Shown: one piece after another, positions 13,764-42,494 of the stretch | Numbering within the stretch: position 1 is the stretch's first letter | Layout: every line of letters starts with the position of its first letter | Assembly (NCBI GenBank): GCA_933822405.4 | Contig: CAKOGP040001001.1 | Coordinates: 434,056 to 498,055, forward strand | Source of the DNA: Cylindrotheca closterium | Taxonomy: Eukaryota; Bacillariophyta; Bacillariophyceae; Bacillariales; Bacillariaceae | DNA: 64,000 bases | Direction: 5' to 3' | Program-made: the position numbers and the translations under genes | The notes under the pieces: generated by a model | Told to the model about the DNA's origin: nothing | Seen by the model: the letters and a program-made list of their open reading frames with translations, nothing else | Database searches by the model: none

Positions 13764-14430
13764 TGTATTTTACTTTTTCTCTTTTCTTTTTTGTGTGCTT
13801 GTCTCTGTTGAAGATGATTGTGGAGTTCCGTGGTTCGAAGTGGGATTACCACGAGCGAACGAAAAGGACATCGTATTTGTTGGGGGGCTCTTAGTTTGTG
13901 GGCGAACGAGCCACATCTTCAACTACAATTTCGCGTCAGCACAAAATAGGAACAAGTATATTTATATTGCATTGGCCATCCGCAGAAGGGGCTATGTCAA
14001 TTTAAGTGCAAATAGGCCCAAGGCGCTAACAACAACGAGGACAGCTGAGAAACGAGCTGTCAATTCCACTTTTCGCGTCAACCCATTCATGATCTATTTT
14101 TAAAAAAAAAGATATTTTTTTAAAACGTGGAAGAACCCCGTCAGTCGAAGTGCAACGTTGCGACGCAATACCGAAAGCAACAACCAGAACCGGAAAAAGC
14201 TGGCGACGGAGCATCGGTAGGTTCTTTGGTTCTTCCCATCAATCTGCTACATACAGTTTTGAATGAAGACTATTATCATAAGGAGAACAGTTGTTGTAGT
14301 ACACGGTTTCAGTTTCAAAAAAATTATCGTCTTCTGTAATACCGGTAGTTGTCAAAGTCAAACTTTTGTAAGATTGTGGATACAGTGACGTTGCTGAAAA
14401 TATCTCTAGCCGCCCTGGTATGCAGACATT
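13764..14430. repeat. HSF copy 1 promoter and relic of neighbouring gene's last exon
   Basis: About 13915-13962 carries a block (TTCAACTACAATTTCGCGTCA) shared with the upstream regions of HSF copies 3 and 4. From about 14005 to 14330 on the plus strand there is diverged similarity to the last exon of the myristoylated-repeat gene (AGGCCCAAGGCGCTAACAAC; GGAGCATCGGTAGGTTC). About 14347-14380 is the conserved 3' block of HSF copy 2. Confidence 0.45.
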
Positions 14431-15243: not shown

Positions 15244-15757
15244 GGTAGTCTATTGCTTTGTGGGGGTTGTTTCTGCTGAAGAATATATTGTATCCAGTCG
15301 GTATTATGTACGGTACCGATACCGGTAGAATAGCAAAGCATTAAAAAAGTGAAGAAAAGAACGTGAAAACCGTATAATGGGATCTATTTGGTGGCGAACG
15401 AGAGCGAACCGCCTTCAGTTGCAAGCAGATCTTAGCGTCAGCTCCCTCTGAATGAACAAGTGCAATAGCTGGCGAAGCATGGAGAACCGGGATGTCGACT
15501 GTTGGACTTCTTCCCATCCATCACTCATATTATGGAAACAGTGATGGCAGTTGCGTCACAGCTGGTACCTTGGACTAGTGGTAGATTTGGGCGCTATCCT
15601 ACATGTATGCACAGTTTCGATCAAACGATACGAGTATATGCGTACAACGTTTCAGTTTCTAAAAAATAGTACTATAATATAAATATATTGTATCATGAAA
15701 ATGTCAAAGTCAAACTTTTGTAAGATTGTCTCGAACCATTAGGATAAGGAAAGAAGC
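15244..15757. repeat. HSF copy 2 promoter and relic of neighbouring gene's last exon
   Basis: About 15460-15600 on the plus strand is a diverged copy of the end of the myristoylated-repeat gene, best seen as AACAGTGATGGCAGTTG followed by CTTGGACTAG (compare 12656-12696). About 15699-15730 is the conserved 3' block of HSF copy 3. Confidence 0.5.
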
Positions 15758-16624
15758 TCAATATTCTATGAGAGATGAACCGCTGTTGCCAGCCCAGAAT
15801 AGGGTGGCACGTGTGGACACAACCCGTAGGCACTCCAAGGCAAAGTAGTCCTGCAAGGCTTGCACGTTCAGTGACACGGAGTTCTTGGATACCGCATTGC
15901 AATCGGGCAAGCAGCCTCGATAGCGCTGCTGAAATGAGAGATCAAGTCGCACGCTTCGTTCTGGAGACACAGGAGTATCCGAGTAGTTTTGCAGGTTCAA
16001 AGGGAAGGAGGACTTGTTTGATACTGCGTTCCTGTTATGCAAGCTTACTTTGCGCGGCAGTGAGAGACTGGGTGGAATGCATTTCGGAGAAACACCCGGT
16101 TCTAGTGGAGGAGTGGATGTCACACTGATGACCTTAGCCGTATTGACGCGTTGAGATCTTGTTGGGAAAGCGGGAAGAAAGGAAGCATGCGAAGATGACT
16201 GCGATGAGGATGACCACAGTGGCTCCAACTCTCCTGTTGGCGTAAGAATCACTTTCTTGTGTTTCATTTCCTTCTTCACTCGAACGCGTTCCATCTGACT
16301 GCATTCGTCTGGCTTTCCTCGGATGAAATGAGGATGAAAGGCGGCACCCCTATCAGGGTCTCTGGTGAGTGTCTGAAACCCCCAAAGATTCAAGTTTCGT
16401 TGAAACGCCTTGAACTTGTTGGTTCTAAAGTACTTCGGCATGACCTGTTCTTCAAAGGCATCCTTATCATGGACTTTGAAACCAAGTCCATTTGGCAGCC
16501 ATGAGATTATTGCATGATGGTCAAAGGCTTCAGTTTCCTCTAGAATAGCATGCAGCTTCAAAGGGAATTGGGGCTTTTGACAGCTACTGGCACCTTGTGC
16601 TGATATTTCGTTGGGGATCCTCAT
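15758..16624 (-). CDS. Heat shock factor-type transcription factor, copy 3
   Basis: 288 residues; the HSF DNA-binding domain at about 20-123 has the same amino-acid sequence as in copy 2, as has the Ser-rich SSSSQSSSHASF stretch after it. The C-terminal half differs and includes SLNVQALQDYFALECLRVVS. No HR-A/B heptad region is evident. It sits in the same orientation as its neighbours about 500 bp from each, with its own upstream block shared with copy 4 (16743-16790). Confidence 0.85.
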   Translation of the reverse strand: MRIPNEISAQGASSCQKPQFPLKLHAILEETEAFDHHAIISWLPNGLGFKVHDKDAFEEQVMPKYFRTNKFKAFQRNLNLWGFQTLTRDPDRGAAFHPHFIRGKPDECSQMERVRVKKEMKHKKVILTPTGELEPLWSSSSQSSSHASFLPAFPTRSQRVNTAKVISVTSTPPLEPGVSPKCIPPSLSLPRKVSLHNRNAVSNKSSFPLNLQNYSDTPVSPERSVRLDLSFQQRYRGCLPDCNAVSKNSVSLNVQALQDYFALECLRVVSTRATLFWAGNSGSSLIEY

Positions 16625-17447
16625 GGTATTCTGTTGTTTCGTGTGTTTTATTTATTTTGTGAGTTTCGGAATAAAAGAAAAAAGTAATCGAACAGATGAA
16701 CGCTGTTTTTCATCCTCTTTGGTGGCGAACGAGGGCGATCCAACGTCAGCTTCAACTACAATTTTCACGTCAACACATTCAGGAAAAATTTTGTATTAAA
16801 AAATGTATTATCTATATAAAATACCACTTTCAATCTGGCCCGCGCTGTGTCACTCAAAGCACAAAGGCCGGAATGGCATTGTTTCAGTTGAAGATTTGAT
16901 ATCGTCACTTTCCATTCGGTATTTAGTATTTTTTTAAATTCTATTTTATTATAATAGCAACAAAGTTAAAAGAAAATGAACAGATCCCTGTTCTATCAGG
17001 CAACCTCTATGGTGGCGAGCGAATGTCAGCTTCAACTTCGATTTTTACGTCAACATATTCTGGAACAAGTGCATGCATCATTTGATGTGATACCCTTTTC
17101 CCCCTACCGGTATTATTGAGACCGTTCATCCGTACACGGGCTGGAAGGGCCTGTGTCAGTCAAAGCGAAAAGGCCTAAACGAATTTCCAACAAAATATAC
17201 TGCATGTTGTATAGAACCTACAGTACCTAGCTGGCCATGGAGCATCGGGAGGTTCTGCTCGTCCTACATCCTTCATACAGGCAACAGTGATAGCAGTTCC
17301 CACAAAGCGGATGGTACTAGATTTGAAAAAGACTAGTAAATAGGCATTATGCAGTTGATGTGAAAGATGTCAAAGTCAAACTTTTGTAAGATTGTGGATA
17401 CAATGTTGTTGAAAGTGTCTCGAACCACTAGGATAAAAGGAAAGATT
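16625..17447. repeat. HSF copy 3 promoter, orphan promoter block and exon relic
   Basis: The block GTCAGCTTCAACTACAATTT occurs upstream of copy 3 (16741-16790) and again, diverged, at about 17024-17075 with no HSF gene attached, so a unit has probably been lost here. About 17155-17330 on the plus strand is a further relic of the myristoylated-repeat gene's last exon (AAAGGCCTAAACGAATTTCCAAC; GGCAACAGTGATAGCAG). About 17366-17400 is the 3' block of HSF copy 4. Confidence 0.45.
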
Positions 17448-18332
17448 TCAATATATGATGGATGAACCACTGCCTGCATGGTTCAGCGAGGCTGCCCGTA
17501 GGCACTCCAGGGCAATGTAATTCTGCAAGGTTTGCACGTTTAGGGAGAAGCAATTGCTGTTCGGTACCACGTTACTACTCTGTGAGAAGGAGTTGCTGGA
17601 TGGCGAAAGGAAATTGGGCAGGCCTCCTGTGCACGGCTGGAGTGAGAGATCAAGTCTCATGGCCTTCGGAGACACAATGGTGTCGGAGAAGTCTTGTTGG
17701 TTTCGCAGGTTCAACGAGAACGAGTTGTTGTTGGACGCTTCGTTGCTGTGGGGCAAGCCTACTGATACTTTGCGAGGGAGTGAGAGACCAGGTGCCATGC
17801 ATTTCGGAGACACAATGGTACCCGGCACCAGTGGAGGAGTTGATGTTGGACTGATGACCTTGATCGTTTTGAGTTGTGATGATTGCGATCTTGGTGAAGA
17901 AGGGGCAGCCGAAGGTGACTGTGATGGGGATGAACACAGTGGTTCCAGCTCTCCTGTTGGCTTGAGAATCACTTTCTTGTGTTTCATTTCCTTCTTCACT
18001 CGAACACGTTCCATCTGATTGCATTCGTCTGGCTTTCCTCGAATGAAATGAGGATGGAAGGCGGCACCTCTATCAGGGTCTCTGGTGAGTGTCTGAAAGC
18101 CCCAAAGATTCAAGTTTCGCTGAAATGTCTTGAACTTGTTGGAGCTAAAGTACTTTGGCATGACTTCTTCTGCAAAGGCATCCTTATCATGGACTTTGAA
18201 ACCAAGTCCATTCGGCAGCCATGAGATGATTGCGTCATGTCCGCAGGTTTCAGTTTCCTCCAGGATAGCATGCAGTTTCCAAGGGAACTGTACCTTTTGA
18301 GAGTTATCTAAAGCTTCGTTGTGATTTCTCAT
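17448..18332 (-). CDS. Heat shock factor-type transcription factor, copy 4
   Basis: 294 residues. Its HSF DNA-binding domain (about 14-117) is the same as that of copy 1, including FAEEVMPKYFSSNKF and GFKVHDKDAF; the region after it is Ser/Pro/Asn-rich and longer than in copy 1, with LNVQTLQNYIALECLRAAS near the C-terminus. Copies 1 and 4 are the outer members of the array and share their 5' ends and leaders, while copies 2 and 3, the inner members, share theirs. This points to duplication of a two-gene unit or to conversion. Confidence 0.85.
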   Translation of the reverse strand: MRNHNEALDNSQKVQFPWKLHAILEETETCGHDAIISWLPNGLGFKVHDKDAFAEEVMPKYFSSNKFKTFQRNLNLWGFQTLTRDPDRGAAFHPHFIRGKPDECNQMERVRVKKEMKHKKVILKPTGELEPLCSSPSQSPSAAPSSPRSQSSQLKTIKVISPTSTPPLVPGTIVSPKCMAPGLSLPRKVSVGLPHSNEASNNNSFSLNLRNQQDFSDTIVSPKAMRLDLSLQPCTGGLPNFLSPSSNSFSQSSNVVPNSNCFSLNVQTLQNYIALECLRAASLNHAGSGSSIIY

Positions 18333-19146
18333 TGTATTTTACTTTTTCTCTTTTCTTTTTTGTGTGCTTGTGATGATGATTGTGGAGTTTTCCATTCATT
18401 CGCCTGCGCGAAGTAGCTGGCACCGAGAGCCAAACGAAGAGAACGTATTTTTATCATTGGGCCCGAGAAAAGGAAACATTTAATTAACGAATCCATGTCA
18501 GCTTCAACTACAATTTTCACGTCAACACATTCAGGAACAAACGCTTATGACAGTTGTTGATCCCATTTTGCGTCGAGACTCATTATTCGTTTCAGATTTC
18601 CCCCGACATCGACGTCAGCCAAAGGTCCCGTTATTTTGAAACTTTCTCCGGGCCATCTATTCGTTTCGGAGGTGTGATTTCAATTGAGAGTGTTCGTCCG
18701 CTTTGGAAACTAAAGACCGCTTCAAGTTCAACTGTGCGGGACCCACGCAAGCGAACTTCAACTACACTGGAGAACTAATATTCTTCCTCTCGTCATCTGC
18801 ATTGACGAGAATGCGACTATGGAACTTCTGCAAGACGTGGTAGGTTTTAAAAAGATGATTTTCTGGACAATCCTTTTAATTATCGACTTAAATATCGGTA
18901 TGTTTTATGACCCACTGAATATTAGAACGGGAACCCGTTGCTGGTCTGGGATAGCACCTTTGTTCCTCAGACGAACAGATCGCCAGCTGGCGTAAAGTAG
19001 TGTTGTTAGGGGTGACGTCGAACTGCTTCAAGTTCACTTGAATATCGTTGAAATGTTTCATCTACCCAATGTCGCCTGCTGACGTAGAATGCTGTTGGGC
19101 TGACGTCGGACGGCTTCAAGTTTACTTCAATATCGTTATGTTTTAT
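18333..19146. other. Intergenic region with imperfect direct repeat
   Basis: Contains the HSF copy 4 promoter block (18496-18545) and, near 18999-19146, two imperfect direct copies of about 65-70 bp (GTTGTTAGGGGTGACGTCGAA... and GCTGTTGGGCTGACGTCGGA...), each carrying TGACGTCG, a CRE/bZIP-like core. No gene is supported. Confidence 0.4.
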
Positions 19147-20503: not shown

Positions 20504-22604
20504 CTAAAACCCTGGTGCATCCAGCAGGCTAAGAACTAGACCAACTCCGTACCCGGTTCCTCGTTGTCCATTAGTTCCAGGCCCTGCCATATCCACATGA
20601 AGCCATCCGTTCTTATAGTCCTTGTCCAAATGTGCTTCAATGAAATGCCCTGCACAGGAAGTTTGGGCATTGGATCGGTCCTTGACACTATTCTTCATAT
20701 CAGCGACTTCTGACTTAAATTCGTCCATTAAGAGCTCTGGGCTGTAAAGGAGGGGGTAAACCAAATCACCGCTGTGCATTCCTGCAGCCATGGCCCTGTT
20801 TTCAAGCTCTTCTGTATTTGCTAGAATACCAGCATGCTTTTTACTATAAAATCAAATACGAAAAATGAGTTAGCTAAAAGAAGTAATCGTAGCAACAGCA
20901 ACTTCCCAGCAATTGCTCAAGTGAGAACTCACCCAGTTGCCACAAGCTGAGCTCCAGTCAGCGTTGCCATATCCACTACCAGATCCAATCCGTCAATGTG
21001 TTTTGTGGCATGTGCGACGCCATCCGCTAGAACCAGGCGACCTTCGGCATCGCAGTTGTTGACTTCCACTGTCTTTCCACTATACATATCCAGAATGTCA
21101 TCGTTGCGAAAGGCATCAGGACCAATGGCGTTTTCGGCCAAGCAAAGAATGCAGTGAACCTTTTTTGGAACGCCCAATTGCACGGCGCTCCAAAATCCAG
21201 CAAAGACACCAGCCGAGCCTCCCCTTGAAGGTAGCGAAGAAAGAATTGGCGTGAGCATAGTTGCAACATCGTAAAACCCCGCTATGCATTACTTTGGACC
21301 TTACATATCATGTTTCATTCCGGCCATTCCAGCTCGAGTCTTGAGGGACAGGCCTCCAGTATCGTAAACGATTCCCTAAGAAGGAGCGAGTCAGTGGTCA
21401 GTAATATGAAGATGGTGGAGTCGAGACTACCATCAAAGATGGAAACTACGGGTGCAAATACAAAAGAAAACAACACTGAAACCTCAGGAGTATAGTTTTG
21501 GTGTCGTCATCCTTCCGTTTCGCGGCGGACGTATCCACAACCTACCTTTCCGACCAAGGCAACTGTCTCAGCATCTGCAGATCCATTAGTTCCATCGTAT
21601 TCCAGTAGAACCAATCGCGGAGGACAGTTTGCCGCTTGACCAACTCCATACAGTCCACCGTACTGTTTCAAATCATTTCCAACGATTTGTTTCATTTCTA
21701 CCTTGGGCTTGTCGCCACTCTTGTTGTAATCGTCGACCATCGATTGGATTTCCTTGGCATATTGAGACGTGGTCAAGAGAGCAGGATGAGAATCGACCAA
21801 GCGGGCCGCCAATTGGACACCTGCAGCAGCAACTTGAGCTGCTTTGAGTTCGGCTTCGCCATCGACCATGGTACCATCAGATTTGCAAAAGACGATGCTG
21901 ATGGTCCTTTTCTTATCGTCAGATGCCTCGTCATCGTCATCACCAGAAGCTTGAGTCTTGGACTTTTTGGAGAATAAAGGAAAAGCCTTGGCCATCGCCA
22001 TAGCGAGAGGGCCGATGGGGTGGTCGTCTGTCAATACTACCACACGAGTATTGCTTCCCTTGCCGCTAGTCCCGACCAACGATCCCACCAGTCTAGTCAA
22101 CGAATGTACAGCCATGGGATGGTTGTGTCTCGACAGTTCGCTGGGGAGCCCCCCAATGGAAAGTTTGTGTACTTTGTTGTTACTGGACAAGAAAGTTGAG
22201 GAAGACCCTCCTTTCTTTTTGCCAATGGATTTTAGGATTGTTTCAACTATAGGGCTATTGCTCTCATCTTGCAGTCCCAGTAATTCCACCAACTGTGACA
22301 TTAAAAGGTTGTCTAATGATGATTTCTTCCCGATGATCACCGTAGAATTGTAGTCTTCCATGGAAGGTAATGATGAGACAAAGTCTAACGTGGGGGCATT
22401 GGATGTGCCCGCATCTGCAGCGGTAGATGCGTGCAAAGAGGTACTGTAGAAACTAGTGGCAACCGATCTTGATGGTGACATCATTCTGGTAGCGAGTCCT
22501 CTCGCTTGCGGCGCCGGAACATTGAGAAAAGAAGACACTGATGTCGTCGTTGACAAACATAGTAGGAGTTGTGGGAAACCACGCCATGCACGGAAGGAGG
22601 CCAT
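20504..22604 (-). CDS. M17 leucyl aminopeptidase, probably plastid-targeted
   Basis: Four exons on the minus strand: 22604-21546, 21375-21305, 21223-20933 and 20843-20504 (introns 170, 81 and 89 bp), joining in phase to 586 residues. The M17 active site is rebuilt across the junctions: VGKG-IVYDTGGLSLK spans intron 1, MKHDM-GGSAG spans intron 2, then NNCDAEGRLVLADG and DMATLTGAQLVATG. Metal ligands (Lys, Asp, Asp, Asp, Glu) and catalytic Lys and Arg of the family are present; the usual NTDAEGRL reads NCDAEGRL. The N-terminus MASFRAWRGFPQLLLCLS...SVSS, then F-L-N-V-P, is a signal peptide plus ASAF-like site, so plastid import is likely. The family releases N-terminal Leu and other residues from peptides as a hexamer with two metal ions. 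A fragment of exon 1 recurs at 30548-30690. Confidence 0.9.
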
Positions 22605-23103
22605 TGTTTCAACGGATTTTTTTAGATTTCAATGCGATTAAAATTCTTGTAGATGCCTCACCAAGATGTGGGATAGAGGATACAGCACGATACAATTCTA
22701 GCTATACTGTAGACCTAAAATTGAATGTTGTATTGGCGGTGCGATCCGCCGAGGATGATGACGTGCACAAAAATCCAGAGATCTTTCAGCAGAACCTTTG
22801 TAATATTTGGGGTATACTACTTTATTCCCCAACCCCATTTCGGGTCCCATAAACAAGCTCTGTGATCTTGATAGTTACAATTCGACCGCGATGCTCCAGT
22901 CCACAACAAATAAGCGGATTGGGTCCTACAGTGGATGAAATGCTATGATTATTCAAAAGAAAGTATCCTATGGTAGTCGAGGATGATTCGATGACCTGAC
23001 GATAATTCCAGCCAATCGCGCAAAGTTGGATTCGAATAAAGTATGATGATTAAAAATACAATGCAATATGCTAGCGCGTCTATCAAAATTTTGAGATATC
23101 CGA
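22605..23103. other. Spacer between aminopeptidase and NO-type cyclase copy A
   Basis: Promoter region of the aminopeptidase and 3' flank of cyclase gene A. The last 60 bp (ATCAAAATTTTGAGATATCC) are shared with the 3' flank of copy B at about 30775. No gene seen. Confidence 0.4.
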
Positions 23104-26100
23104 TCAACTCTTGACGATATTCTCGACATTGGACAGTTCATTCGTTAGATCGTCAATCAAAGCCTGCACCATCCGGCTTCCCGCTCGCCCAGATTGGTCT
23201 TGAGATTCACTTCCACCGTGGCGAATAATGCCATCATCTGAATGCATCCGATACCAGTCCTGTTGCTTGAAGTGGCTGTGGATCTTGTCCCAGGTCAGCC
23301 CCTTCAACTCTTCAGATCCCGGTTGCCCCTTGTAGGCGATGGCGATGAGATTGCCACAGGCAGTCTGAACTTTCCGCTCGTACCGCCTGACGACCTTGGA
23401 CAAGGTCTCGACCTCAGAGACAATATGCGACGTCAATATCAATTCACTTCCATGTGACCTTGCAGAGGCAAGCGAGTTAGCAGAGGTACAGGAGATCCTT
23501 CGTGTACTGCGTTCCTCGTTACGTGCTATTGCAGCTTTCGTCATTTCCTCAGTAATTCTCTTCCCTTCAAGCTCCCACCGCTTCCGATTACTGCGGGCTT
23601 GCTTAATGAGCTGGTTGCTGACAATGTCAAAAATACCGCATTCTCGAAGATTTTCAGCAAGTGGGATCACCCAATTGTCAAAGAACCACAGCTCGCCGTT
23701 GTACCAGTTGGTCGATGGATCCTTGGGTGTTCGACCATCTTCATGGGCATCGTAAAATTCGTTGAACAGCTTCTCGTTCCACTCTCGATACAGCTCCCAG
23801 TTTTGCATTGTGTGCACAACATCGGATGCTTGCATAAGTTGCTCAATGACAATCGTCGCCTTTGTGTTGGACTCGTCCTCGTACGAGGTAGCCGAGTTAT
23901 CGTGGAAGACCTTTTCCCACCGAATCCTGCGAGTTTCCCGAAGGTCCTTGTCGAAAATATCAGTGGCCATGACGCAATTGACAAGCAAATGACGGAGTCG
24001 TTCTTTCTCCTGGGGCGAATCAAAGAGACACTTGTGGAGGTTCCGGTAACTGTCCGACATGAGAACTGCCCATGCTGTGTCGATTGAGTTTTGCTCGGCA
24101 ATACTCTTGTTGTTGTACCTCTCGGCGAGAGCTGGATTTTCATCAGCCAACTGACCGTTCGGAATTCCAATGTGACCCACATCATGGACCACAGCCGATA
24201 GTACAATGGCAAACTTGGCAAGCGGATCAGAAGCAATACCGCTCGCATCTTTGGACCCTTCCTTGGCATGGATCCCGGTCAGCAGAAGCTTTGCAAGATG
24301 CGCAACATGACTTGCGTGCATGAAGTTGTGGAATTCGTTGCTCTCGTATCCACTGGCAATTTGAACAACAAAGTCATGAAGCTCAGACCGAGCTTCTGGA
24401 CTGAGTTCTGGAGCAGCTTGGTTCGAATTGGCACCACCTTTTCCCTTTTTCATCTCGATCACCAGTTTGACTTCGTCCACAGGATTGGTAGCTCGAATAG
24501 ACTCCCCTGAAAGAGCTGTGTCAAATGGAGTCACGGAATCATGAGATGCAGCGACGTCCCTTAGCAGCTTCTCCAAGATGTCAACGTTATTGGCGATTAG
24601 ACTTTCCACAGACATATCGCAATATTTCTCCACCGAAGCGCGGCCGACAATGGCCCCTGGAAGCCTGGTAGCAGCAACCCATTCTCTTCCAGTGTCTCCC
24701 CAGAGAATAGTGTTCGTTTCGACAATTTTCTGGATATGGTCAAGGGACGGAAATGCGTCTTGCATGCGTGTGATAAGAGGCGTCACGGCATTCTTGAAGT
24801 ACATGTTCTGCTCGTAAAACCAACTGTCGCGTGGATCCTCCGCTCGATCGTTCCGAAAAGCTTTCAGAATCTCCTCAAACTGCAGTCGGTTTCGCTGGAT
24901 GAAGACATTGTAGGATTGCGTGTAATGACCAATCATCGCAGTGCAGACCATTAGACAGAGTTTCGCGTCGTTCAATTCTTTGAATCCACGGGCGGCCGCT
25001 GATTCCTTCTCAGTGATGGCATCATACTCTTCGACAACTGCCAAAAGCTTCTCTTCTGTTTCGATGTCGGTGGCCAGCATCAATTTCCGCAAAGATCCAC
25101 GGAAACTTGGGCATCCAAAGATGATCTCCTCGTACAAATCCGCAAATTCTTCTTCAAGTAATTCAAATGCCGTGATGAAGGCATGACGTTGTTGGTACGC
25201 CCCTTTGCCCTCATTCATTTGGAAATACAAATGCTTCTCTGCTTCAAGCTGCGCATTCGACACACCCTGGTGACCAATGCCATGGATCAAAACACAAAAA
25301 AGAAGGGCAAAACGGTCCCAAGGATTGTCGTAAAACGACGTGTTCTTCTCAATCCGAGAAGCCGCCCATGCCTCCCAGAGATAGACTGCCCTCGTGAATG
25401 TTTGTGCTGTCTGATCGAAATTGTGATACGGATTTTCTTCATTGTAGAGAATGGCGATTCGCTTCACAAATTCTTCCAATTCGGCAATAACAGTTTCCAT
25501 TCTGCTGGCGCTCTTGTGAACACACTGCTGTAAACACGATGAAAGCACAGCTGTGATTCGCTCAAGCGACTGTTCCAAAGACAAGGTCTCGTCCCACTTG
25601 ATACTCTCCCAGCTTTTGCCAAAGTGATAACACTGCTCTTCCGATAGATCAATGATTGTAGTCCCGGAGCCTTCGATGATGTCTTCTTCACCAGGTTCGA
25701 TGTCGCCTTCAAGGAGGCTATCAACACTATGAATCGACCCATCATCAGACTCATACGTTTTGTCTTGTGGCAAAAATGATGCGACGATTCGACCACAGCT
25801 GCTCTCTTCCTCTGGTCCACTGCCAGAACTTTCACTTTGAGAACTCATGGAATGGTCAGCAACGGAAAAAGCATCGACCAATCCTCCCTTGCGAAAGTAT
25901 TTTCTCTTTTTCCACGTCTTCGAAGCGATCATTTGTTCAGCGTGTTTTGAAAGTTCAGAAAGCGCTTTGGAGTTGCCCCCTTGGTTGAATTCAGTTCCAC
26001 TCTCGACAAAGTATGTGTAGTGTTGTCCTTTTCCTTTCATATCCACTAGACCACGGGCCTTGAAGTTGTACTGTGGTTCGTCCAGCTTGGCGAAAGTTCG

Positions 26101-28224
26101 GAGGCGACTGAACAAAACACTGGAGCAGTGAATCTTGCCAGGAATACCAGTCGACTCATGGCGAGCTGTTACATTCACCATATCTCCAAACAGACAGTAG
26201 TGGGGCGTCATGGTTCCAACAACTCCAGAGGTGCAGCTGCCAGTATGGATACCAATACGCATCTTCACTGGTGATCCATCAAGTGGTGACTTGACGTGTT
26301 TGCTACATTCAATAACAGCCAAGGCGAAATTCGTGACGTTCTCAGCATGAAATTCATCGGGCTCTGGAAGTCCCGAGCAGCACCTATATCAACGAAACAA
26401 AATGCGTGAGCGATAATCAAAGACGTGAGCGATATTCAACATTGAACAGGTACAGGTCATTTCAAATATTCTCACATGTACGCATCGCCAACCGTTTCGA
26501 CCTTGTACAAGTTGAAATGCGCAGCAAGATAGTCCATAATTGAGTAGAGCTGATTCATCATATCAATAATATCCCACGGTTCCACTTGGTCACAGATTTT
26601 GGTGAACCCAACAATATCAGAAAAGAAAAGAGTCACGTTTTCATGAAAGACTGGATCAACTGTTTTCCCCCGACGGAGGTCGTCAGCAACTTTGCGGGGG
26701 ATGATACTATGCAACAGTGTGTTGGATAGATTCTTTTCCGCGTCCATCTTTCTGCTTAGCTTGTCGAGCTTGTGCGCCTTGTCGGCTTCTTGCGTCACAT
26801 ATTCTCCCAAGAAAACGGCATCGCGTTGGTTGGATTGCAATGGAAGGTCAGATAGAGTCAAGCCCATATTGTTCAGTTCAGTGACGTTTGAAACTTCAGG
26901 ACTCAAGACGAACATGACCCTTTCACGTGATGTCTCAACCATCGATGCTTTGAATTTGATCCTATCATCTGACATGGCAACCTTCTTACCCTTAGGCTTG
27001 GTAGCAATCGAAGGCGATAGGATAAAATTTTGATCGGCCAGCTTCTTCATACTATTCCAGTTCCATGATGTTCCAAGAACCGGTTTAGTGATCTCGAGAA
27101 ACGTGTTGATATGACTTCCCATCATTTCGCTTGCCCTTCGCTGAAGTAGCTTTGGAAGCTTCGATCCAACTTGGACAATATGGAAATCGTTGTTCACCAG
27201 AACATGGAATGGAAAAATTCCCTTCATTCTGTCGTAAGAAACACCAGGGGAGTCTTCGGAGCTAGCCATTGAGCTATCAGCAGTATCGACCGTCTTGTCA
27301 GCTGAGTCATTCTTGATGTGTTCATGAGGAAATGGACACTTGCCCTTTGAAGCATCAGACTCGTCACCCTTTTCCAAGGTGGAGGTCTTGGTGTCTTGAC
27401 CATGAGAAAAAGGACATTTTCCAGTCGATTTCTTGGTTTCTTCGATTTCAATCGTCGTTTGCTTCAGCTTGCGCCCCGAAAATGGGCACTTGGCAGGCAA
27501 CGGCACGTCATCGAAGTTGACCTCTTCCTCGTCAACGTTTTGTGAAACCTTTGGAGAGAGCTTCCAGGTTTGTGTCGGATCAGTAGCAACTATCCTCCAG
27601 GTTGTGAAACTCGAACCGTCCACGTCCTGCAGTGATAGCCTAGTCATGTCAATCTCAACCCCAAAGTGGTAGGACGCGAGCTCCTGCGATATCAAGTCTG
27701 TTAGATCTTACAGAACAATATTTCATTCAGAAGTTCCATGCAGTGCTTACCTTCACGATCCCCACAACCCATGCTACTAACCGATTTCCACGCTGGCTGT
27801 AGTAATGTAATAGAATACTTCCCTCGTAGATTTCTGAGTCTGAGTCTTCGCACCAAAAGACAGGGGGGCAAAAGTTTCCGCCTGGGAAACTTTTTTGAAT
27901 GTGATCGTGCATGGCATTGAGATTCGACAACCATTGTCGTAAAGTTGAACCTTGGCATTTCAGCAATGCGTCATACCCATGTGAAAAGTGGTATCTGATG
28001 TTATAGTGACCGTATTCCTCGAGAATGGTATCGAATGAAGAGTTCAACACCTCAGCAGCAGCTGTGATGAGGTTGACCCAAGAATCGTAGCTGTAAAATG
28101 TTCTTGTGACGAAGGCTTGATCCTGGACATCGCAACCTGCCTTTGCCTTGATTGCGTGCCATGCCTTGACTCCTTGTTGCTCGAGCACCCACTCTTCGAA
28201 GATTTCATATACAAGCCCGTGCAT
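23104..28224 (-). CDS. H-NOX/HNOBA guanylyl cyclase fused to two phosphodiesterase domains, copy A
   Basis: Exons 28224-27751, 27683-26476 and 26383-23104 (introns 67 and 92 bp) give 1653 residues. Residues 1-158 are an H-NOX heme domain: MHGLVYEIFEEW start, proximal His106, and Y141-x-S143-x-R145. The position of the distal Tyr of O2-binding H-NOX is Val/Ala, which predicts NO selectivity. A linker has three Cys-Pro-Phe motifs (C224, C248, C274). HNOBA (about 310-455) and a signalling helix precede the cyclase, which keeps metal Asp514 and Asp558, guanine-selecting Glu554 and Cys624, and Asn631/Arg635. Two class I phosphodiesterase folds follow. The first (about 866-1120) has lost the metal ligands (HNFDQTA, HGIGHQG); the second (about 1230-1480) retains H1246NFMHA, H1294D1295VGH, Asp1369 and Asp1415. 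Predicted: NO-sensitive cGMP synthesis and cyclic-nucleotide hydrolysis in one soluble chain. The start is the ATG where H-NOX homology begins; an in-frame upstream extension is possible. Confidence 0.9.
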
Positions 28225-29939
28225 GGCTGAAAATAAAGTTGCTGATTTTGTGAGAAAGTTTGGAGTTGCGTCAGCTCGCAGGACCTCACATTTCTGCAAC
28301 AAAAAAAGACAGGAGCGTTTTTATGACGTCTAAAAAAAAAGCATGGACGTATCGCATACTTATTGCGTCATCAAATCGACATTTGATCAATAATCAACAG
28401 GAACGAGAATCGAGAATGTCATGATTTTTCGATTTGCCAGCACAGAAATGACGTTTTGTACAGCCAATGACAAGACGGGAAGGATAGGCGGAGAAGTATG
28501 TTCGACTTGTTGTTTCACTTTTTACGATCAAGTGAGAATGTATCAAAAGTTCCAAAGCATGTACAGTTGATACTGTATCCTACGCTGATAGTCCTCAGGT
28601 TCGCCGATGTTTTGTTCCAAAGTAAGCTTACATTGCTACTTTTTCTGGACATTTTCTTTTGTTTTAATTGTAGTGGTACCTCTTCTCCTGGGTTCCCTTA
28701 CGTAAGTGAGGGTGTGTCTCCATGGCGAATTACCATCACCTGCGCTCATATTGTCCAATGATGGTGAGAAATCCGGTCGAGCGCTTCTCATATGGAAGAG
28801 TCCCGAAGATAAAATTCGTTCTGTTCCCACACAACTTGACACCTGCCTTCCGGCGGATTCTCAGTTGTCAATACTATGCGCCATCCTTCATCCGCGTTCC
28901 GTCAAGCTCGAACTCTTGTATCCAATGGAGAGAAATTTGGCAGAATTATTTCTGCTCTTGGAAGAGCCTCGAAGATAAAATTCGTCTTGTTCCTGCACAT
29001 TGAACATATGCATCCTTGACACCTGCCTTCTCTGGATTCTCACACATGCCAGTATGCGTCATCCTTCCTCTATCCTCGTCTCTTCAGCCTTGGTTTCATG
29101 AACCATCTCGTGTCCTTGCTAAATATTAAGGCCTGGATTGTCGCAAATACGGATGATCATGCTCCGCTACAGCAGTAGCAGAATGATTTTTGTGTCAAGT
29201 CCGTTCGTCATTGCCAAAGAAGCTGTTAGCAGAAGCGTTGGATGCGCCAATGGAAGGCTGGTATTGTTATATTTCGATAACTCATTCATTTCCACCACCG
29301 CGTACTGTGCATGTATGAAGTCACGATCAGAGCAGCAGTCCGACCAGACCATTCTCATAGTTTCGTTCGACTTTCGTAAAACCTTGACATTTTCTTCCAA
29401 GCGCCATGAATATCTCCTCATTCTTCAACTTATTATGAGAGTCAGGATCTTTGACTCTTCTTCCAGCGGCCTCAATGGCTTCACCCAGCCAACGTGTGTC
29501 ACATTGTTGGTAGTGAATAAACANNNNNNNNNNCCAAGCGCCATGAATATCTCCTCATTCTTCAACTTATTATGAGAGTCAGGATCTTTGACTCTTCTTC
29601 CAGCGGCCTCAATGGCTTCACCCAGCCAACGTGTGTCACATTGTTGGTAGTGAATAAACATTGTCGTGATTGCATTGGCAGATTTATTCACCATTCACCA
29701 ATACATTTTTAATTTTCAAAAAAAAGATTGTAGATCCAAAATATTAAATCCGTTCCCACATTCATGGTGGCGTAAACAAGTCCTATCTCTTGCCTCGAAT
29801 GTTGTCAAGTTGATGAGGGATGGATGAGATGACAGGATGAGGGATGAGATGCTGTTGGGATTGCCCCACACTACGACGAGATGATATGCGCGCGATGAAT
29901 GAATGCGGACGTCGATCGTATTATAATAATATAAAAGAA
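28225..29939. repeat. 5' flank of cyclase copy A, shared with copy B
   Basis: Diverged similarity to the 5' flank of copy B (35927-37530), e.g. TCTCACACATGCCAGTATGCGTCATCC (about 29038 and 36956) and ATGGTGGCGTAAACA with GTTGTCAAGTTGATGAGGGATG (about 29764-29822 and 37470-37531), after which similarity stops. It also contains repeated GAAGATAAAATTCGT units (28806, 28971). Frames here are short and have no recognised domain. Confidence 0.5.
29397..29660. other. Assembly gap flanked by an exact 127-bp repeat
   Basis: Ten Ns at 29524-29533 are flanked by 29397-29523 and 29534-29660, which are the same 127 bp. This is the signature of two contigs that overlap by one k-mer (k = 127) and were scaffolded without merging. 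The real sequence is probably continuous with one copy; the apparent repeat and frames across the Ns are artefacts. Confidence 0.85.
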
Positions 29940-30690: not shown

Positions 30691-30796
30691 GGAATCTACT
30701 TTCGAAAGCAAGGGAATTCAACCATGAACTGCTATGATTCTAAAATACATGTAATAAAATGTGCTACCGTGTTTATCAAAATTTTGAGATATCCAA

Positions 30797-33700
30797 TCAA
30801 CCCTTGACGATATTCTCGACCTTGGACAGTTCATTCGCCAGATCGTCAATCAAAGTCTGTACCATCCGGCTTCCCGCCCGTCCAGATGGGTCTTGAGATT
30901 CACTTCCACCGTGTCGAATAATGCCATCATCCGAATGCATCCGATACCAGTCCTGTTGCTTGAAGTGGCTGTGGATCTTGTCCCAGGGTTGCCCCTTCAA
31001 CTCTTCAGATCCTGGTTGCCCCTTGTAGGCGATGGCGATGAGATTGCCACAGGCAGTCTGAACTTTCCGCTCGTACCGCCTGACGACCTTGGACAAGGTC
31101 TCGACCTCAGAGACAATATGCGACGTCAATATCAATTCACTTCCATGTGACCTTGCAGAGGCAAGCGAGTTAGCAGAGGTACCGGAGGTGACCGAGGTCC
31201 TTCGTGCACTTCGTTCCTTGTTCCGTGCTATTGCAGCTTTCGTCATTTCCTCAGTAATTCTCTTCCCTTCAAGCTCCCACCGCTTCCGATTACTGCGGGC
31301 TTGCTTGATGAGCTGGTTGCTGACAATGTCAAAAATACCGCATTCTTGAAGATTTTCAGCAAGTGGAATCACCCAATTGTCAAAGAACCACAGCTCGCCG
31401 TTGTACCAGTTGGTCGATGGATCCTTGGGGGTCCGTCCGTCTCGATAGGCATCGTAAAATTCGTTGAACAGCTTCTCGTTCCACTCTCGATACAGCTCCC
31501 AGTTTTGCATTGTGTGCACAACATCGGATACTTGCATAAGTTGCTCAATGACAATCGTCGCCTTTGTGTTGCACTCGTCCTCGTACGAGGTAGCCGAGTT
31601 ATCGTGGAAGACCTTTTCCCACCGAATCCTGCGAGTTTCCCGAAGGTCCTTGTCGAAAATATCAGTGGCCATGACGCAATTGACAAGCAAATGACGGAGT
31701 CGTTCTTTCTCCTGGGGCGAATCAAAGAGACACTTGTGGAGGTTCCGGTAACTGTCCGACATGAGAACTGCCCATGCTGTGTCGATTGAGTTTTGCTCGG
31801 CAATACTCTTGTTGTTGTACCTCTCGGCGAGAGCTGGATTTTCATCAGCCAACTGACCGTTCGGAATTCCAATGTGACCCACATCATGGACCACAGCCGA
31901 TAGTACAATGGCAAACTTGGCAAGCGGATCAGAAGCAATACCGCTCGCATCTTTGGACCCTTCCTTGGCATGGATCCCGGTCAGCAGAAGCTTTGCAAGA
32001 TGCGCAACATGACTTGCGTGCATGAAGTTGTGGAATTCGTTGCTCTCGTATCCACTGGCAATTTGAACAACAAAGTCATGAAGCTCAGACCGAGCTTCTG
32101 GACTGAGTTCTGGAGCAGCTTGGTTCGAATTGGCACCACCTTTTCCCTTTTTCATCTCGATCACCAGTTTGACTTCGTCCACAGGATTGGTAGCTCGAAT
32201 AGACTCCCCTGAAAGAGCTGTGTCAAATGGAGTCACGGAATCATGAGATGCAGCGACGTCCCTTAGCAGCTTCTCCAAGATGTCAACGTTATTGGCGATT
32301 AGACTTTCCACAGACATATCGCAATATTTCTCCACCGAAGCGCGGCCGACAATGGCCCCTGGAAGCCTGGTAGCAGCAACCCATTCTCTTCCAGTGTCTC
32401 CCCAGAGAATAGTGTTCGTTTCGACAATTTTCTGGATATGGTCAAGGGACGGAAATGCGTCTTGCATGCGTGTGATAAGAGGCGTCACGGCATTCTTGAA
32501 GTACATGTTCTGCTCGTAAAACCAACTGTCGCGTGGATCCTCCGCTCGATCGTTCCGAAAAGCTTTCAGAATCTCCTCAAACTGCAGTCGGTTTCGCTGG
32601 ATGAAGACATTGTAGGATTGCGTGTAATGACCAATCATCGCAGTGCAGACCATTAGACAGAGTTTCGCGTCGTTCAATTCTTTGAATCCACGGGCGGCCG
32701 CTGATTCCTTCTCAGTGATGGCATCATACTCTTCGACAACTGCCAAAAGCTTCTCTTCTGTTTCGATGTCGGTGGCCAGCATCAATTTCCGCAAAGATCC
32801 ACGGAAACTTGGGCATCCAAAGATGATCTCCTCGTACAAATCCGCAAATTCTTCTTCAAGTAATTCAAATGCCGTGATGAAGGCATGACGTTGTTGGTAC
32901 GCCCCTTTGCCCTCATTCATTTGGAAATACAAATGCTTCTCTGCTTCAAGCTGCGCATTCGACACACCCTGGTGACCAATGCCATGGATCAAAACACAAA
33001 AAAGAAGGGCAAAACGGTCCCAAGGATTGTCGTAAAACGACGTGTTCTTCTCAATCCGAGAAGCCGCCCATGCCTCCCAGAGATAGACTGCCCTCGTGAA
33101 TGTTTGTGCTGTCTGATCGAAATTGTGATACGGATTTTCTTCATTGTAGAGAATGGCGATTCGCTTCACAAATTCTTCCAATTCGGCAATAACAGTTTCC
33201 ATTCTGCTGGCGCTCTTGTGAACACACTGCTGTAAACACGATGAAAGCACAGCTGTGATTCGCTCAAGCGACTGTTCCAAAGACAAGGTCTCGTCCCACT
33301 TGATACTCTCCCAGCTTTTGCCAAAGTGATAACACTGCTCTTCCGATAGATCAATGATTGTAGTCCCGGAGCCTTCGATGATGTCTTCTTCACCAGGTTC
33401 GATGTCGCCTTCAAGGAGGCTATCATCACTATGAATCGACCCATCATCAGACTCATACGTTTTGTCTTGTGGCAAAAATGATGCGACGATTCGACCACAG
33501 CTGCTCTCTTCCTTTGGTCCACTGCCAGAACTTTCACTTTGAGAACTCATGGAATGGTCGGCAACCGAAAGATCATCGACCAATCCTCCCTTGCGAAAGT
33601 ATTTTCTCTTTTTCCACGTCTTCGAAGCGATCATTTGTTCAGCGTGTTTTGAAAGTTCAGAAAGCGCTTTGGAGTTGCCCCCTTGGTTGAATTCGGTTCC

Positions 33701-35926
33701 ACTCTCGACAAAGTATGTGTAGTGTTGTCCTTTTCCTTTCATCTCTACGAGACCACGGGCCGTGAAGTTGTACTGTGGTTCGTCCAGCTTGGCGAAAGTT
33801 CGGAGGCGACTGAACAAAGCACTGGAGCAGTGAATCTTGCCAGCAATACCAGTCGACTCATGGCGAGCTGTTACATTCACCATATCTCCAAACAGACAGT
33901 AGTGGGGCGTCATGGTTCCAACAACTCCAGAGGTGCAGCTGCCAGTATGGATACCAATACGCATCTTCACTGGTGATCCATCAAGTGGTGACTTGACGTG
34001 TTTGCTACATTCAATAACAGCCAAGGCGAAATTCGTGACGTTCTCAGCATGAAATTCATCGGGCTCTGGAAGTCCCGAGCAGCACCTATATCAACGAAAC
34101 AAAATGCGTGAGCGATAATCAAAGACGTGAGCGATATTCAACATTGAACAGGTACAGGTCATTTCAAATATTCTCACATGTACGCATCGCCAACCGTTTC
34201 GACCTTGTACAAGTTGAAATGCGCAGCAAGATAGTCCATAATTGAGTAGAGCTGATTCATCATATCAATAATATCCCACGGTTCCACTTGGTCACAGATT
34301 TTGGTGAACCCAACAATATCAGAAAAGAAAAGAGTCACGTTTTCATGAAAGACTGGATCAACTGTTTTCCCCCGACGGAGGTCGTCAGCAACTTTGCGGG
34401 GGATGATACTATGCAACAGTGTGTTGGATAGATTCTTTTCCGCGTCCATCTTTCTGCTTAGCTTGTCGAGCTTGTGCGCCTTGTCGGCTTCTTGCGTCAC
34501 ATATTCTCCCAAGAAAACGGCATCGCGTTGGTTGGATTGCAATGGAAGGTCAGATAGAGTCAAGCCCATATTGTTCAGTTCAGTGACGTTTGAAACTTCA
34601 GGACTCAAGACGAACATGACCCTTTCACGTGATGTCTCAACCATCGATGCTTTGAATTTGATCCTATCATCTGACATGGCAACCTTCTTACCCTTAGGCT
34701 TGGTAGCAATCGAAGGCGATAGGATAAAATTTTGATCGGCCAGCTTCTTCATACTATTCCAGTTCCATGATGTTCCAAGAACCGGTTTAGTGATCTCGAG
34801 AAACGTGTTGATATGACTTCCCATCATTTCGCTTGCCCTTCGCTGAAGTAGCTTTGGAAGCTTCGATCCAACTTGGACAATATGGAAATCGTTGTTCACC
34901 AGAACATGGAATGGAAAAATTCCCTTCATTCTGTCGTAAGAAACACCAGGGGAGTCTTCGGAGCTAGCCATTGAGCTATCAGCAGTATCGACCGTCTTGT
35001 CAGCTGAGTCATTCTTGATGTGTTCATGAGGAAATGGACACTTGCCCTTTGAAGCATCAGACTCGTCACCCTTTTCCAAGGTGGAGGTCTTGGTGTCTTG
35101 ACCATGAGAAAAAGGACATTTTCCAGTCGATTTCTTGGTTTCTTCGATTTCAATCGTCGTTTGCTTCAGCTTGCGCCCCGAAAATGGGCACTTGGCAGGC
35201 AACGGCACGTCATCGAAGTTGACCTCTTCCTCGTCAACGTTTTGTGAAACCTTTGGAGAGAGCTTCCAGGTTTGTGTCGGATCAGTAGCAACTATCCTCC
35301 AGGTTGTGAAACTCGAACCGTCCACGTCCTGCAGTGATAGCCTAGTCATGTCAATCTCAACCCCAAAGTGGTAGGACGCGAGCTCCTGCGATATCAAGTC
35401 TGTTAGATCTTACAGAACAATATTTCATTCAGAAGTTCCATGCAGTGCTTACCTTCACGATCCCCACAACCCATGCTACTAACCGATTTCCACGCTGGCT
35501 GTAGTAATGTAATAGAATACTTCCCTCGTAGATTTCTGAGTCTGAGTCTTCGCACCAAAAGACAGGGGGGCAAAAGTTTCCGCCTGGGAAACTTTTTTGA
35601 ATGTGATCGTGCATGGCATTGAGATTCGACAACCATTGTCGTAAAGTTGAACCTTGGCATTTCAGCAATGCGTCATACCCATGTGAAAAGTGGTATCTGA
35701 TATTGTAGTGACCGTATTCCTCGAGAATGGTATCGAATGAAGAGTTCAACACCTCAGCAGCAGCTGTGATGAGGTTGACCCAAGAATCGTAGCTGTAAAA
35801 TGTTCTTGTGACGAAGGATTGATCCTGGACATCGCAACCTGCCTTTGCCTTGATTGCGTGCCATGCCTTGACTCCTTGTTGCTCGAGCACCCACTCTTCG
35901 AAGATTTCATATACAAGCCCGTGCAT
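30797..35926 (-). CDS. H-NOX/HNOBA guanylyl cyclase fused to two phosphodiesterase domains, copy B
   Basis: Exons 35926-35453, 34085... (35385-34178 and 34085-30797) give 1656 residues, with the same two introns as copy A at an exact offset of 7,702 bp over the H-NOX, HNOBA and cyclase exons. Coding sequence and introns are nearly identical to copy A; I see a handful of changes, such as D-D-L-S for D-A-F-S after the cyclase, Ala for Pro in G-I-(P/A)-G-K-I-H, and a three-residue insertion in the Ser/Thr stretch near the C-terminus (RRTSVTSGTSANS). All residues noted for copy A are kept: proximal His106, Y-x-S-x-R, three CPF motifs, cyclase metal and base-selecting residues, a degenerate first and intact second phosphodiesterase. 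Both copies therefore look functional. The 5' flanks differ more than the genes, so their expression may differ. Confidence 0.9.
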
Positions 35927-38174
35927 GGCTGAAAATAAAATGTTTGCTGATTTTGTGAGAAAGTTTGGAGTTGCGTCAGTTCGCATGAGCCTCGCGAATT
36001 GTTTCCAAAAATGACCGGGGCTTTCTGCGAAGTATCATATTTTAAATACTTATTGTGAAGTCAAAAAGACATTTGGTCATTTATTTATAGGCAAAAAGGA
36101 GAATCGAGAATGTCATGATTTTTCGGCTTTGTGAACAGGGAAGGGAAAAAAGGAAGCGACAATTCACAGCCAATGACAAGTGGGGAAGGATAAGAGCGGT
36201 GAAGTGTGGTCGACTTTTGTAGTTTCGCTTGATCATAGATGCGATCACCCGAGAAGTTTGTGTCATATTGTACAGTAGGTCATCCTGTAGTTTTCAGTAC
36301 TGTACTGTACTAGGTCCAAAGAGTTTTCAGCCGCTGACTAGGTCCAAAGAGTTTTCAGCCGATGACTAGGTCCCAAGAGTTTTCAGCCGCTGACTAGGTC
36401 CCAAGAGTTTTCAGCCGCTGACTAGGTCCCAAGAGTTAGTTTCCTGCCTCTGACTAGTTCCCAACAAGTTTCTCATTTTGGACATTTTCATTTGTGATCA
36501 TACCGGTAATATTACAGTCATTGGCAAGCAGCGGGGAGCACAAGCGGGGAAGTGACTGGTCATTTCACTTTTATTCCAGTGGGAAGTTCTTGGTTTGAGT
36601 CATAGTTCCAAGGACAGTACCAGTAATGAACACAGAGTTTTCAGCCGCTGCCTACCGTACCACCGGTATTTGCTCATCTGGATATTTTCATTTGAGAACG
36701 CATTCTGTACGCAGAATATTCGTCGATAAAATTCGTTCTGTTTCCACACACCTTGAAGACACCTCTCCTCTCTAGGATTCTCTTCCTTAAGCAAGGTATG
36801 TCATCTTTCCTCCATCCCCATCGCCTCAATCAACCAGTACATTATGACTTTCATCATCAGGCGCTCATTTTCCAACAGATTTCCTTATCATAGAAGTTCT
36901 CATGGAAGATAAAATTCGTTGTTTTCCTACACCTTTTGGCACCTGTCTTCTCTGGATTCTCACACATGTCAGTATGCGTCATCCTTCATCTATCCTCGTC
37001 TCCTCAGCCTTGTCATCGTGAATCATCTCATGTTCTTGTTAGCATCCGGCCGTCCAGTGTGAAGGCCTGCATTGTTGCAAGGGCGATCAAGCTCGAGCCA
37101 GTGACCCCATTCCATTTGCCAAGTGGAAGGGTTGCGTCGTTGACAGCCTTTGAGAATCTCGACTCAGTAATTCTTTGGGCTGCCGCTTTCAGCAATCCTA
37201 TTGTAGGTAAATCAATGATCGGGATGATTTTTGTGCGGAGTCCGTTCGTCATTATTGCAAAGCAAGATGTCAGTAGAAGAGTCGGATAAGTCAATATGAA
37301 AACTGTTTTGATGTATTTCGACAAACCATTCATTTCCACCCAGCCAATGTGTGCGTCACGCTGAAATTGTTGGTCAGTATATTTCAAGTATAGAATAAGT
37401 GATTGGATTATTGGGAGGTTAAGATTAAAGATCCAAAATATTAGATCCTTCCCACGTTGAAGTTGTTCATGGTGGCGTAAACAGTAAATAGGTCCTGTCT
37501 CGTTCCAACAGGTTGTCAAGTTGATGAGGGATGTGGATTGATGATTGATCGGCAAGACGGGAGACGTATGGGCGTTTCTAGCTCTTCCTTAGTCTCAATT
37601 TCCGTCGTGTCGATTACGGCGCGTCGCTTCAGTGAAGTACACGGTTGGCGGACGGAGCGAAGAGTGTCGACGAAGAGGACGGAAGATTTGGAGAAGACAT
37701 TGTTCGCAATGGGAGCTTGTGGGATGATGGAGACGATAGAAGGAGCTTAGCTGCTCGGTCAAGACCGTCAGCTTTTTTGCTTTTCCCGCCCTCACCACCC
37801 TCTCTCTCATTTGCACCATAGCTCGGTATACCCCATTTGGTCCGGGTTTGTCTGTCAATCCTATTGATTGTCCTTTTCGAATCCTATGATTCGACCTCGG
37901 TGCAAAACCAGTCACTAACTTAGTACCTCGCTACTGTGCCAAACCTACCCGCTTCTCGTATGTAGCATCAGGCTTTTGCCACAGTTTCCATGGTAGCATA
38001 CGTGCGCGATCTCTCCAGACAAAGACTACATCATGCGATTCATTCAAGCCCAGGAGTGGAGGCGGCGCCGGGTAATCTTCGATTAGACGTATGATACCGG
38101 TATATTATATTCAGTGTAGTCAATACGCAGTACGCATAAAATATGGTACCGGTATATTGAATACTGCAAGCATG
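35927..38174. other. 5' flank of cyclase copy B and gene-free spacer
   Basis: 35927-37531 is related to the flank of copy A. It includes a 28-bp minisatellite (36309-36437) and GAAGATAAAATTCGT units. A leftward frame at 37028-37555 and its diverged counterpart near 29167-29330 share M-N-(E/G)-L-S-K-Y and PTLLLT, perhaps a coding relic, but I do not recognise it. From 37532 to the satellite at 38175 I see no gene. Confidence 0.4.
36309..36437. repeat. 28-bp minisatellite, about 4.6 copies
   Basis: Unit ACTAGGTCC(A/C)AAGAGTTTTC followed by AGCCGCTG, starting at 36309, 36337, 36365, 36393 and 36421, with a further degenerate unit near 36461. It lies in the 5' flank of cyclase copy B; no equivalent array is seen at copy A. 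Confidence 0.85.
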
Positions 38175-42483: not shown

Positions 42484-42494
42484 CATGCGCGAGA

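Follow-up and report, generated by a model that had tools for sequence, protein, structure and literature searches.

The window analysed here is a 64,000-nucleotide stretch of the genome of the diatom Cylindrotheca closterium (contig CAKOGP040001001.1, positions 434,056 to 498,055), and the gene in question, copy A, occupies its positions 23104..28224 on the (-) strand. We consider it fairly probable that this gene encodes a soluble guanylyl cyclase gated by nitric oxide (NO), which carries its own cyclic GMP (cGMP) phosphodiesterase (PDE) fused behind the cyclase and sets the cGMP level; this is the best explanation of the observations presented below. When both introns are spliced out, a single frame of 1653 amino acids (aa) is obtained, ending at position 23104, and the coordinates, strand, two introns and continuity given in the initial annotation of this DNA were correct. 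Across all 1653 residues the model is identical to a publicly listed C. closterium protein. That entry is unnamed and is called 'guanylate cyclase' in UniRef, so the gene has already been annotated, but as a cyclase by name only. The features of copy A are as follows:

23104..28224 (-): whole gene, copy A; 3 exons, 1653 aa, H-NOX/HNOBA/cyclase/PDE1/PDE2
27751..28224 (-): exon 1, aa 1-158
27684..27750 (-): intron 1, 67 nt, GT-AG; position and length matched in copy B (see below)
26476..27683 (-): exon 2
26384..26475 (-): intron 2, 92 nt, GT-AG; matched in copy B
23104..26383 (-): exon 3, including the stop codon
27642..28221 (-): H-NOX, Pfam HNOB aa 2-172, across intron 1; His106 (27909-27907), YxSxR (27804-27790), Trp152
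27237..27617 (-): linker with three KCPF motifs, heme-regulatory-motif-like; Cys224, Cys248, Cys274 (codon starts 27488, 27416, 27338)
26676..27236 (-): HNOBA (Pfam), aa 308-494
26002..26645 (-): class III guanylyl cyclase, aa 505-688, across intron 2; Asp514, Glu554, Asp558, Cys624, Asn631, Arg635
24670..25497 (-): PDE1, putative pseudo-phosphodiesterase, aa 857-1132; His881, Gln885, His928, Gly929, Met1044; Gln1086 kept
23533..24408 (-): PDE2, metal site intact, aa 1220-1511; His1246, His1250, His1294, Asp1295, Asp1415; Glu1458

The four families that the initial annotation had named are all found above the Pfam cut-offs, i.e. HNOB (6e-33, residues 2-172), HNOBA (4e-30, 308-494), Guanylate_cyc (1e-57, 505-688) and PDEase_I (3e-40, best match 1245-1475, with two PDE stretches). 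Scored separately against the cut-off of 24.8 bits, PDE1 reaches 40.9 bits (2.5e-10) and PDE2 110.8 bits (1e-31). These E-values, together with relatives of identical order, leave no room for a domain order that arose by chance. Separate genes or a prediction artefact are rejected in view of the single spliced frame, the two copies in the window, the identical public model and the matching order in the relatives. Three features were not mentioned in the initial annotation: the missing metal ligands of PDE1, the near-identical tandem copy and the Cys-Pro-Phe motif of the linker. The Pfam scan of copy A found neither a GAF domain nor a further regulatory domain. No transmembrane segment was seen N-terminal of the cyclase, the highest 19-residue Kyte-Doolittle mean being 1.44 at residue 1275, within PDE2 (no dedicated transmembrane predictor was run). 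The initial annotation had mentioned cyclase-PDE fusions in protists, and such fusions occur in diatoms; the five-domain order, which it had not met elsewhere, is not unique to this gene, since Cylindrotheca fusiformis and records of Bacillariaceae show it as well.

Sensor and cyclase

Alignment with the beta-1 chain of human soluble guanylyl cyclase (sGC) covers the first 174 residues of copy A. His106 corresponds to the proximal heme ligand and Y141-x-S143-x-R145 is conserved. HNOBA and a class III cyclase follow, so the sGC-like features are present in order, and the cyclase residues Asp514, Glu554, Asp558, Cys624, Asn631 and Arg635 all lie on one chain; the roles that we ascribe to Glu554, Cys624, Asp514/558 and Asn631/Arg635 are assumed ones. 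The sensor motifs, HNOBA and the cyclase Glu and Cys that had been read from the DNA are thereby borne out. The full class III catalytic set in one chain makes a homodimer possible. Animal sGC has no PDE and is an alpha/beta heterodimer that shares the cyclase site, each chain carrying part of it. Copy A resembles its beta-1 chain (PDB 6jt0_B, 6pas_B) in the order of H-NOX, HNOBA and class III cyclase, the proximal His and YxSxR, and differs from the alpha/beta enzyme in having a complete cyclase site on a single chain and fused PDEs.

The distal H-NOX residue of copy A, Trp152, is aligned to an Ile of human beta-1, which we take to be Ile145. Among the 42 family members that have this part the residue is Met (12), Trp (9), Leu (9), Phe (9), Tyr (1), Val (1) or Cys (1). 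A Tyr at this position is the mark of O2-binding H-NOX domains, and the spectrum of residues tends to favour NO above stable O2 binding.

The linker between H-NOX and HNOBA, in which KCPF is tripled in both copies A and B, has a further characteristic. Out of 123 proteins examined, 101 have both flanking domains, and the linker contains Cys-Pro in 98 of them (Cys-Pro-Phe in 87), the rows without it being P0215, P0223 and P0224. In these linkers 153 Cys-Pro dipeptides were observed versus 13.9 expected from composition, and the reverse dipeptide, Pro-Cys, occurs 11 times. Many rows of the samples are metagenomic; the named rows listed by the H-NOX search are diatoms, with two exceptions, P0216 (a tick sGC) and P0225 (a TPR protein of bacterial origin). 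The Cys-Pro of a tick sGC among the counted rows is probably due to chance. In the 46 first relatives the dipeptide is found in all 42 linkers present, in 10/42 H-NOX, 5/46 HNOBA and 0/46 cyclase domains, and further on in 5/46 and 1/29 of the later linkers, 1/28 PDE2 domains and 1/29 tails; PDE1 carries its own Cys-Pro in 33/45. In a review on heme-binding motifs, Cys-Pro dipeptides are singled out for their more frequent occurrence (PMC10377097). The linker Cys-Pro-Phe may be considered a putative heme motif, similar to heme-regulatory motifs.

Two phosphodiesterase domains of different fate and origin

The PDE domains were compared at five acid/metal residues (H,H,H,D,D) and the purine-binding Gln in 190 PDE hits from 147 proteins. 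The relatives were searched among proteins of 909-2893 aa, and the sequences in all counts given here are related by descent and do not represent independent events; P0034 and P0039, with hidden Markov model (HMM) pieces of <200 aa, were left out of the intact/broken counts and of the tree described below. PDE1 of copy A reads H,Q,H,G,M instead of H,H,H,D,D, i.e. Gln stands in place of the second His, Gly of the Asp of the HD pair and Met of the third Asp, while the family is still recognised by Pfam. In two-PDE proteins of the H-NOX family (23, including the records P0004, P0016 and P0017 without the H-NOX part) the site is intact in 0/23 PDE1 and in 18/23 PDE2 domains. Six of the 15 single-PDE H-NOX proteins (a count that includes the incomplete P0029) have an intact PDE, the sole named one among them being that of Ditylum. 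Single-PDE proteins without H-NOX, taken from the best 120 of 298 matches, are intact in 82/82 cases.

Loss of the metal site does not mean that PDE1 is free to vary. The purine Gln is retained in 34/36 first PDE domains, where its column comes 18th by entropy among 267, compared with ranks of 98, 220 and 83 for the three His in order and of 228 and 128 for the two Asp. This set comprises the 23 first PDEs of the H-NOX family and 13 from proteins without H-NOX, which are presumably exon-3 fragments of members of this family. The ratio of nonsynonymous to synonymous substitution rates (dN/dS, NG86 method), calculated for a single pair (copy A versus the paralogue located at C101:288 kb), was 0.180 for PDE1 and 0.181 for PDE2, compared with 0.067 for H-NOX, 0.095 for HNOBA, 0.032 for the cyclase and 0.31-0.43 for the linkers and tail. 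The equal ratios of the two PDEs and the conserved Gln indicate that PDE1 is constrained though it lacks the enzyme residues. PDE1 thus appears to be a retained pseudo-phosphodiesterase, which lost its metal site and kept the family signature and purine Gln, and selection on such a metal-less domain suggests that it has been recruited for regulation. That PDE1 is an active enzyme is rejected on account of the lost metal ligands, the absence of an intact site from all 23 two-PDE members and the 14/14 broken copies in the genome. Of the initial annotation's two PDE domains there remain two PDE regions above the Pfam cut-off, not two enzymes.

It could be that PDE1 is a functionless relic decaying beside a newly gained PDE2. 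The metal ligands were lost in many differing ways, and the PDEs of the single-PDE proteins P0038 and P0040 of Seminavis are likewise broken without any PDE2 being present. On the other hand, the dN/dS of PDE1 matches that of PDE2 in the single pair tested, many PDE1 columns besides that of the Gln are strongly conserved, and P0023 and P0026 retained PDE1 while being without PDE2. We therefore regard decay as rather improbable.

Only PDE2 looks catalytic. As in the diatom guanylyl cyclase/PDE (GC/PDE) fusions, a cyclase and a class I PDE with intact H,H,H,D,D are present on one chain. Glu1458 replaces the otherwise invariant purine-binding Gln, as placed by the domain alignment and the known motif spacing and not by a residue-level PDB alignment. 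The same Glu occupies this position in 107/107 intact PDE domains of proteins without H-NOX (124 hits), and PDE2 is a member of this receptor-type GC/PDE lineage. By analogy with the Q453E variant of PDE9, a Michaelis constant (KM) in the micromolar range is predicted.

The origin of the two domains was traced in a maximum-likelihood tree of 182 PDE domains, a quick, midpoint-rooted one in which long branches are flagged. One branch (SH-aLRT 100) splits 51 rows, namely the H-NOX PDE1s, single PDEs and first PDEs of the fragments, from 131 rows of PDE2 and receptor-type domains. The 23 PDE2 and 13 second PDEs of the fragments form one 36-row group (support 95), which is nested in a wider group of 42 rows that also takes in single-PDE fusions lacking H-NOX (support 96). 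Since the tree places PDE1 and PDE2 apart, an origin of PDE2 by internal duplication of PDE1 is rejected. PDE1 would be the descendant of an ancestral diatom NO-cyclase PDE, and PDE2 a later addition from the receptor-type cyclase-PDE lineage. In the simplest history, the ancestral NO-cyclase had one active Q-type PDE, as Ditylum still does; the metal site was lost in pennate lines, in which Seminavis P0038 and P0040 are broken and have no PDE2; finally, an E-type PDE was gained from a receptor-type fusion and occasionally lost again (P0023, P0026).

Paralogues, mechanism and alternative explanations

The genome contains 15 HNOB matches, 14 of which are followed on one strand by HNOBA and a cyclase; the match on C340 belongs to another kind of gene. 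These 14 genes include copies A and B and C101:288399. Two PDE domains lie downstream in 13 of them, and C540:705578 has PDE1 only. PDE1 is broken in 14/14 and PDE2 intact in 11/13, and 12/14 possess the proximal His. The two exceptions, the neighbours L037 and L040 on C330, have Phe or Ile at this position; in their PDE2, Ser or Thr stands in place of the third metal Asp and Gln at the Glu position, while all six cyclase residues are retained. P0018, P0019, P0020 and P0022 follow the same pattern, so that this is a conserved heme-less, PDE-dead class with intact cyclase residues; this combination makes a partner role like that of sGC alpha possible. P0023, with PDE1 and without PDE2 like P0026, is also found in the genome (stretch L032). 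Counted as pieces and not as genes, the PDEase_I matches of the genome as a whole number 113, and many of them are clustered (C535, C539, C517), which points to a very large cyclic-nucleotide family. In P0180 and P0182, proteins close to the H-NOX cyclase family, H-NOX and HNOBA are joined to a response regulator and a hybrid histidine kinase, and a 2537-aa cyclase/PDE protein (P0048) has a globin domain and several PDE pieces.

The same genome encodes an NO synthase, a 1352-aa open frame with oxygenase and flavodoxin domains above the cut-off and FAD and NAD parts below it. Two NO synthase loci (L041 and L042, G000 C478:41000-56500) lie a few kb apart in opposite orientation, the second one matching in pieces.

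The relay from NO through H-NOX and HNOBA to the cyclase is established for sGC. In copy A, NO would analogously bind the H-NOX heme, and HNOBA and the coil would relay the change to a cyclase dimer, which would produce cGMP. PDE2, the sole domain with an intact metal site, would, judging by its residues, hydrolyse it. As synthesis and breakdown are held 1:1 in one chain, the steady cGMP concentration should be independent of the amount of protein, which makes the protein a level-setter: NO would raise the cyclase output against the fused PDE2, and a level would be set without pulses. This level would equal KM x r/(1-r), where r is the NO-dependent ratio of cyclase to PDE turnover. PDE1 is most likely a structural partner of PDE2 and/or a cGMP-binding feedback domain. 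A tentative extension, on balance improbable, holds that PDE1 is a metal-free cGMP receptor that feeds the level back to the cyclase and PDE2, with the Cys-Pro-Phe linker as a second heme or thiol-redox input. If this were true, one chain would constitute a complete NO-to-cGMP controller, i.e. sensor, actuator, sink and feedback sensor.

Several points weigh against a level-setting NO-gated cyclase. For a set point to result, the PDE has to turn over faster than the cyclase and the contribution of other PDEs has to be small; the PDEase_I matches in the genome bear on the latter condition. PDE2 has a His at the position of the nucleotide-pocket Asn of PDE4B, which makes its substrate preference uncertain. 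With a distal Trp instead of Ile, NO selectivity is a presumed property. The fold of PDE1 rests on Pfam/HMM scores and a confident model, as the structural matches (VIA-align, from model residue ~231-237 to ~688) start inside the end of PDE1 and do not bear on its fold, and the PDE tree has the quick construction and long branches mentioned above. As for expression, the full-length transcript protein P0018 (MMETSP, 1530 aa, 'complete', four Pfam families) shares 88% identity with P0022 of C. closterium, and both are members of the heme-less, PDE-dead class; P0009 (MMETSP, 1525 aa, 'complete') has the proximal His and an intact PDE2 and is without the first 104 residues relative to P0006 (73% identity); and a transcript of copy A was not found among the relatives listed, MMETSP proteins included.

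The initial annotation had proposed a homodimer with two hydrolysing PDEs, which fires short, self-ending cGMP pulses or runs a futile cycle. A single chain does hold two PDE regions and a complete set of cyclase residues; the metal site of PDE1 is, however, broken in every two-PDE member and genome copy, and the anatomy offers no support, Pfam having found no GAF or extra regulatory domain. Pulses require a delay, and none is apparent unless PDE1 binds cGMP and feeds back, while the predicted micromolar KM fits a ceiling or set point better. We judge this explanation very improbable. The homodimer as such is possible, the catalytic residues being all in one chain, and is weakened by the two heme-less, PDE-dead paralogues as potential partners. 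A pairing of heme-bearing, PDE-active chains with such paralogues, in a heterodimer like that of animal sGC or in a mixed dimer, is a possibility to be taken seriously, albeit not the one we expect. L037 and L040, together with the equivalent class in P0018, P0019, P0020 and P0022, speak for it. Yet family chains hold both halves of the cyclase site (the guanine-side Cys being Ala in L033 and L035, 2/14 genome genes, and in P0012, P0021 and P0040), so that catalysis need not depend on a partner, unlike in the animal alpha/beta enzyme.

It is also conceivable, if doubtful, that NO is not the main signal of H-NOX and that the domain reports O2, CO, the redox state or the supply of heme, with Cys-Pro-Phe as a heme/thiol-redox sensor. 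The variable distal residue and the nearly universal linker Cys-Pro are consistent with this. However, Tyr, the mark of O2 binding, occurs in just 1/42 members, and an NO synthase is encoded by the same genome.

Known systems and the surrounding window

Among the closest known systems are the receptor-type GC/PDEs of Seminavis robusta, in which, as in copy A, a cyclase is followed by a PDE in one chain; the portions of the two reports at hand describe two predicted transmembrane segments in diatom GC/PDE fusions and their up-regulation by sex pheromone (PMC4726125, PMC8027222). Receptor-type proteins (e.g. P0073, P0090) contain the cyclase and PDE families of Pfam only, to which copy A adds a soluble H-NOX sensor and a pseudo-PDE. 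Single-PDE H-NOX cyclases are found in Ditylum and Seminavis. Ditylum brightwellii P0030 and Seminavis P0034, P0038 and P0040 contain H-NOX, HNOBA, a cyclase and one PDE of the PDE1 branch (P0034 being outside the tree); they differ from copy A in lacking PDE2, and their PDE is intact in Ditylum and broken in the Seminavis proteins. Chlamydomonas CYG56 is, like copy A, an algal soluble guanylyl cyclase with an HNOB domain and is NO-responsive; it comes from a green alga, and a fused PDE is not mentioned in the part of the review consulted (PMC4620153). Among the open-licence literature matches listed, which cannot prove absence, there was no description of a diatom protein that combines H-NOX, a cyclase and a PDE, with or without a pseudo-PDE.

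The published cyclase-PDE fusions, according to the same portions of those reports, are membrane proteins with unproven ligands, tied to sex-pheromone responses. With a recognisable NO sensor on a soluble protein the input is defined, and the effect of fusing a cyclase to its own PDE could therefore be tested directly in one purified protein. The family further provides a pseudo-phosphodiesterase apparently under selection, as well as a natural experiment on the loss of one PDE and the gain of a second. The H-NOX cyclase family and NO synthase in one genome suggest that the NO-cGMP network of this pennate diatom is large.

The tandem paralogue lies upstream of copy A in the same orientation:

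30797..35926 (-): copy B, 1656 aa, protein 98.4% identical to copy A, equal intron lengths

The duplicated DNA extends around both genes (23065-28287 versus 30758-35993, 98.7% identity). Synonymous divergence between the copies is 0 in the linker, HNOBA, PDE1 and the PDE1-PDE2 linker, 0.02-0.03 in H-NOX, the cyclase and PDE2, and 0.134 in the C-terminal tail. This uneven distribution looks like the outcome of gene conversion. Near-identical (99%) tandem repeats of ~1.37 kb adjoin the gene pair at 38175-42484, several dispersed repeats of 0.36-0.6 kb (83-99.6% identity) occur at 13369-18371, and a 3.9-kb duplication (90.6% identity) is present at 47919-51810 and 53915-57806. The neighbouring gene at 20929-22628 (-), as far as its translated open reading frames can be judged by eye, presumably encodes a leucyl-aminopeptidase-type enzyme.

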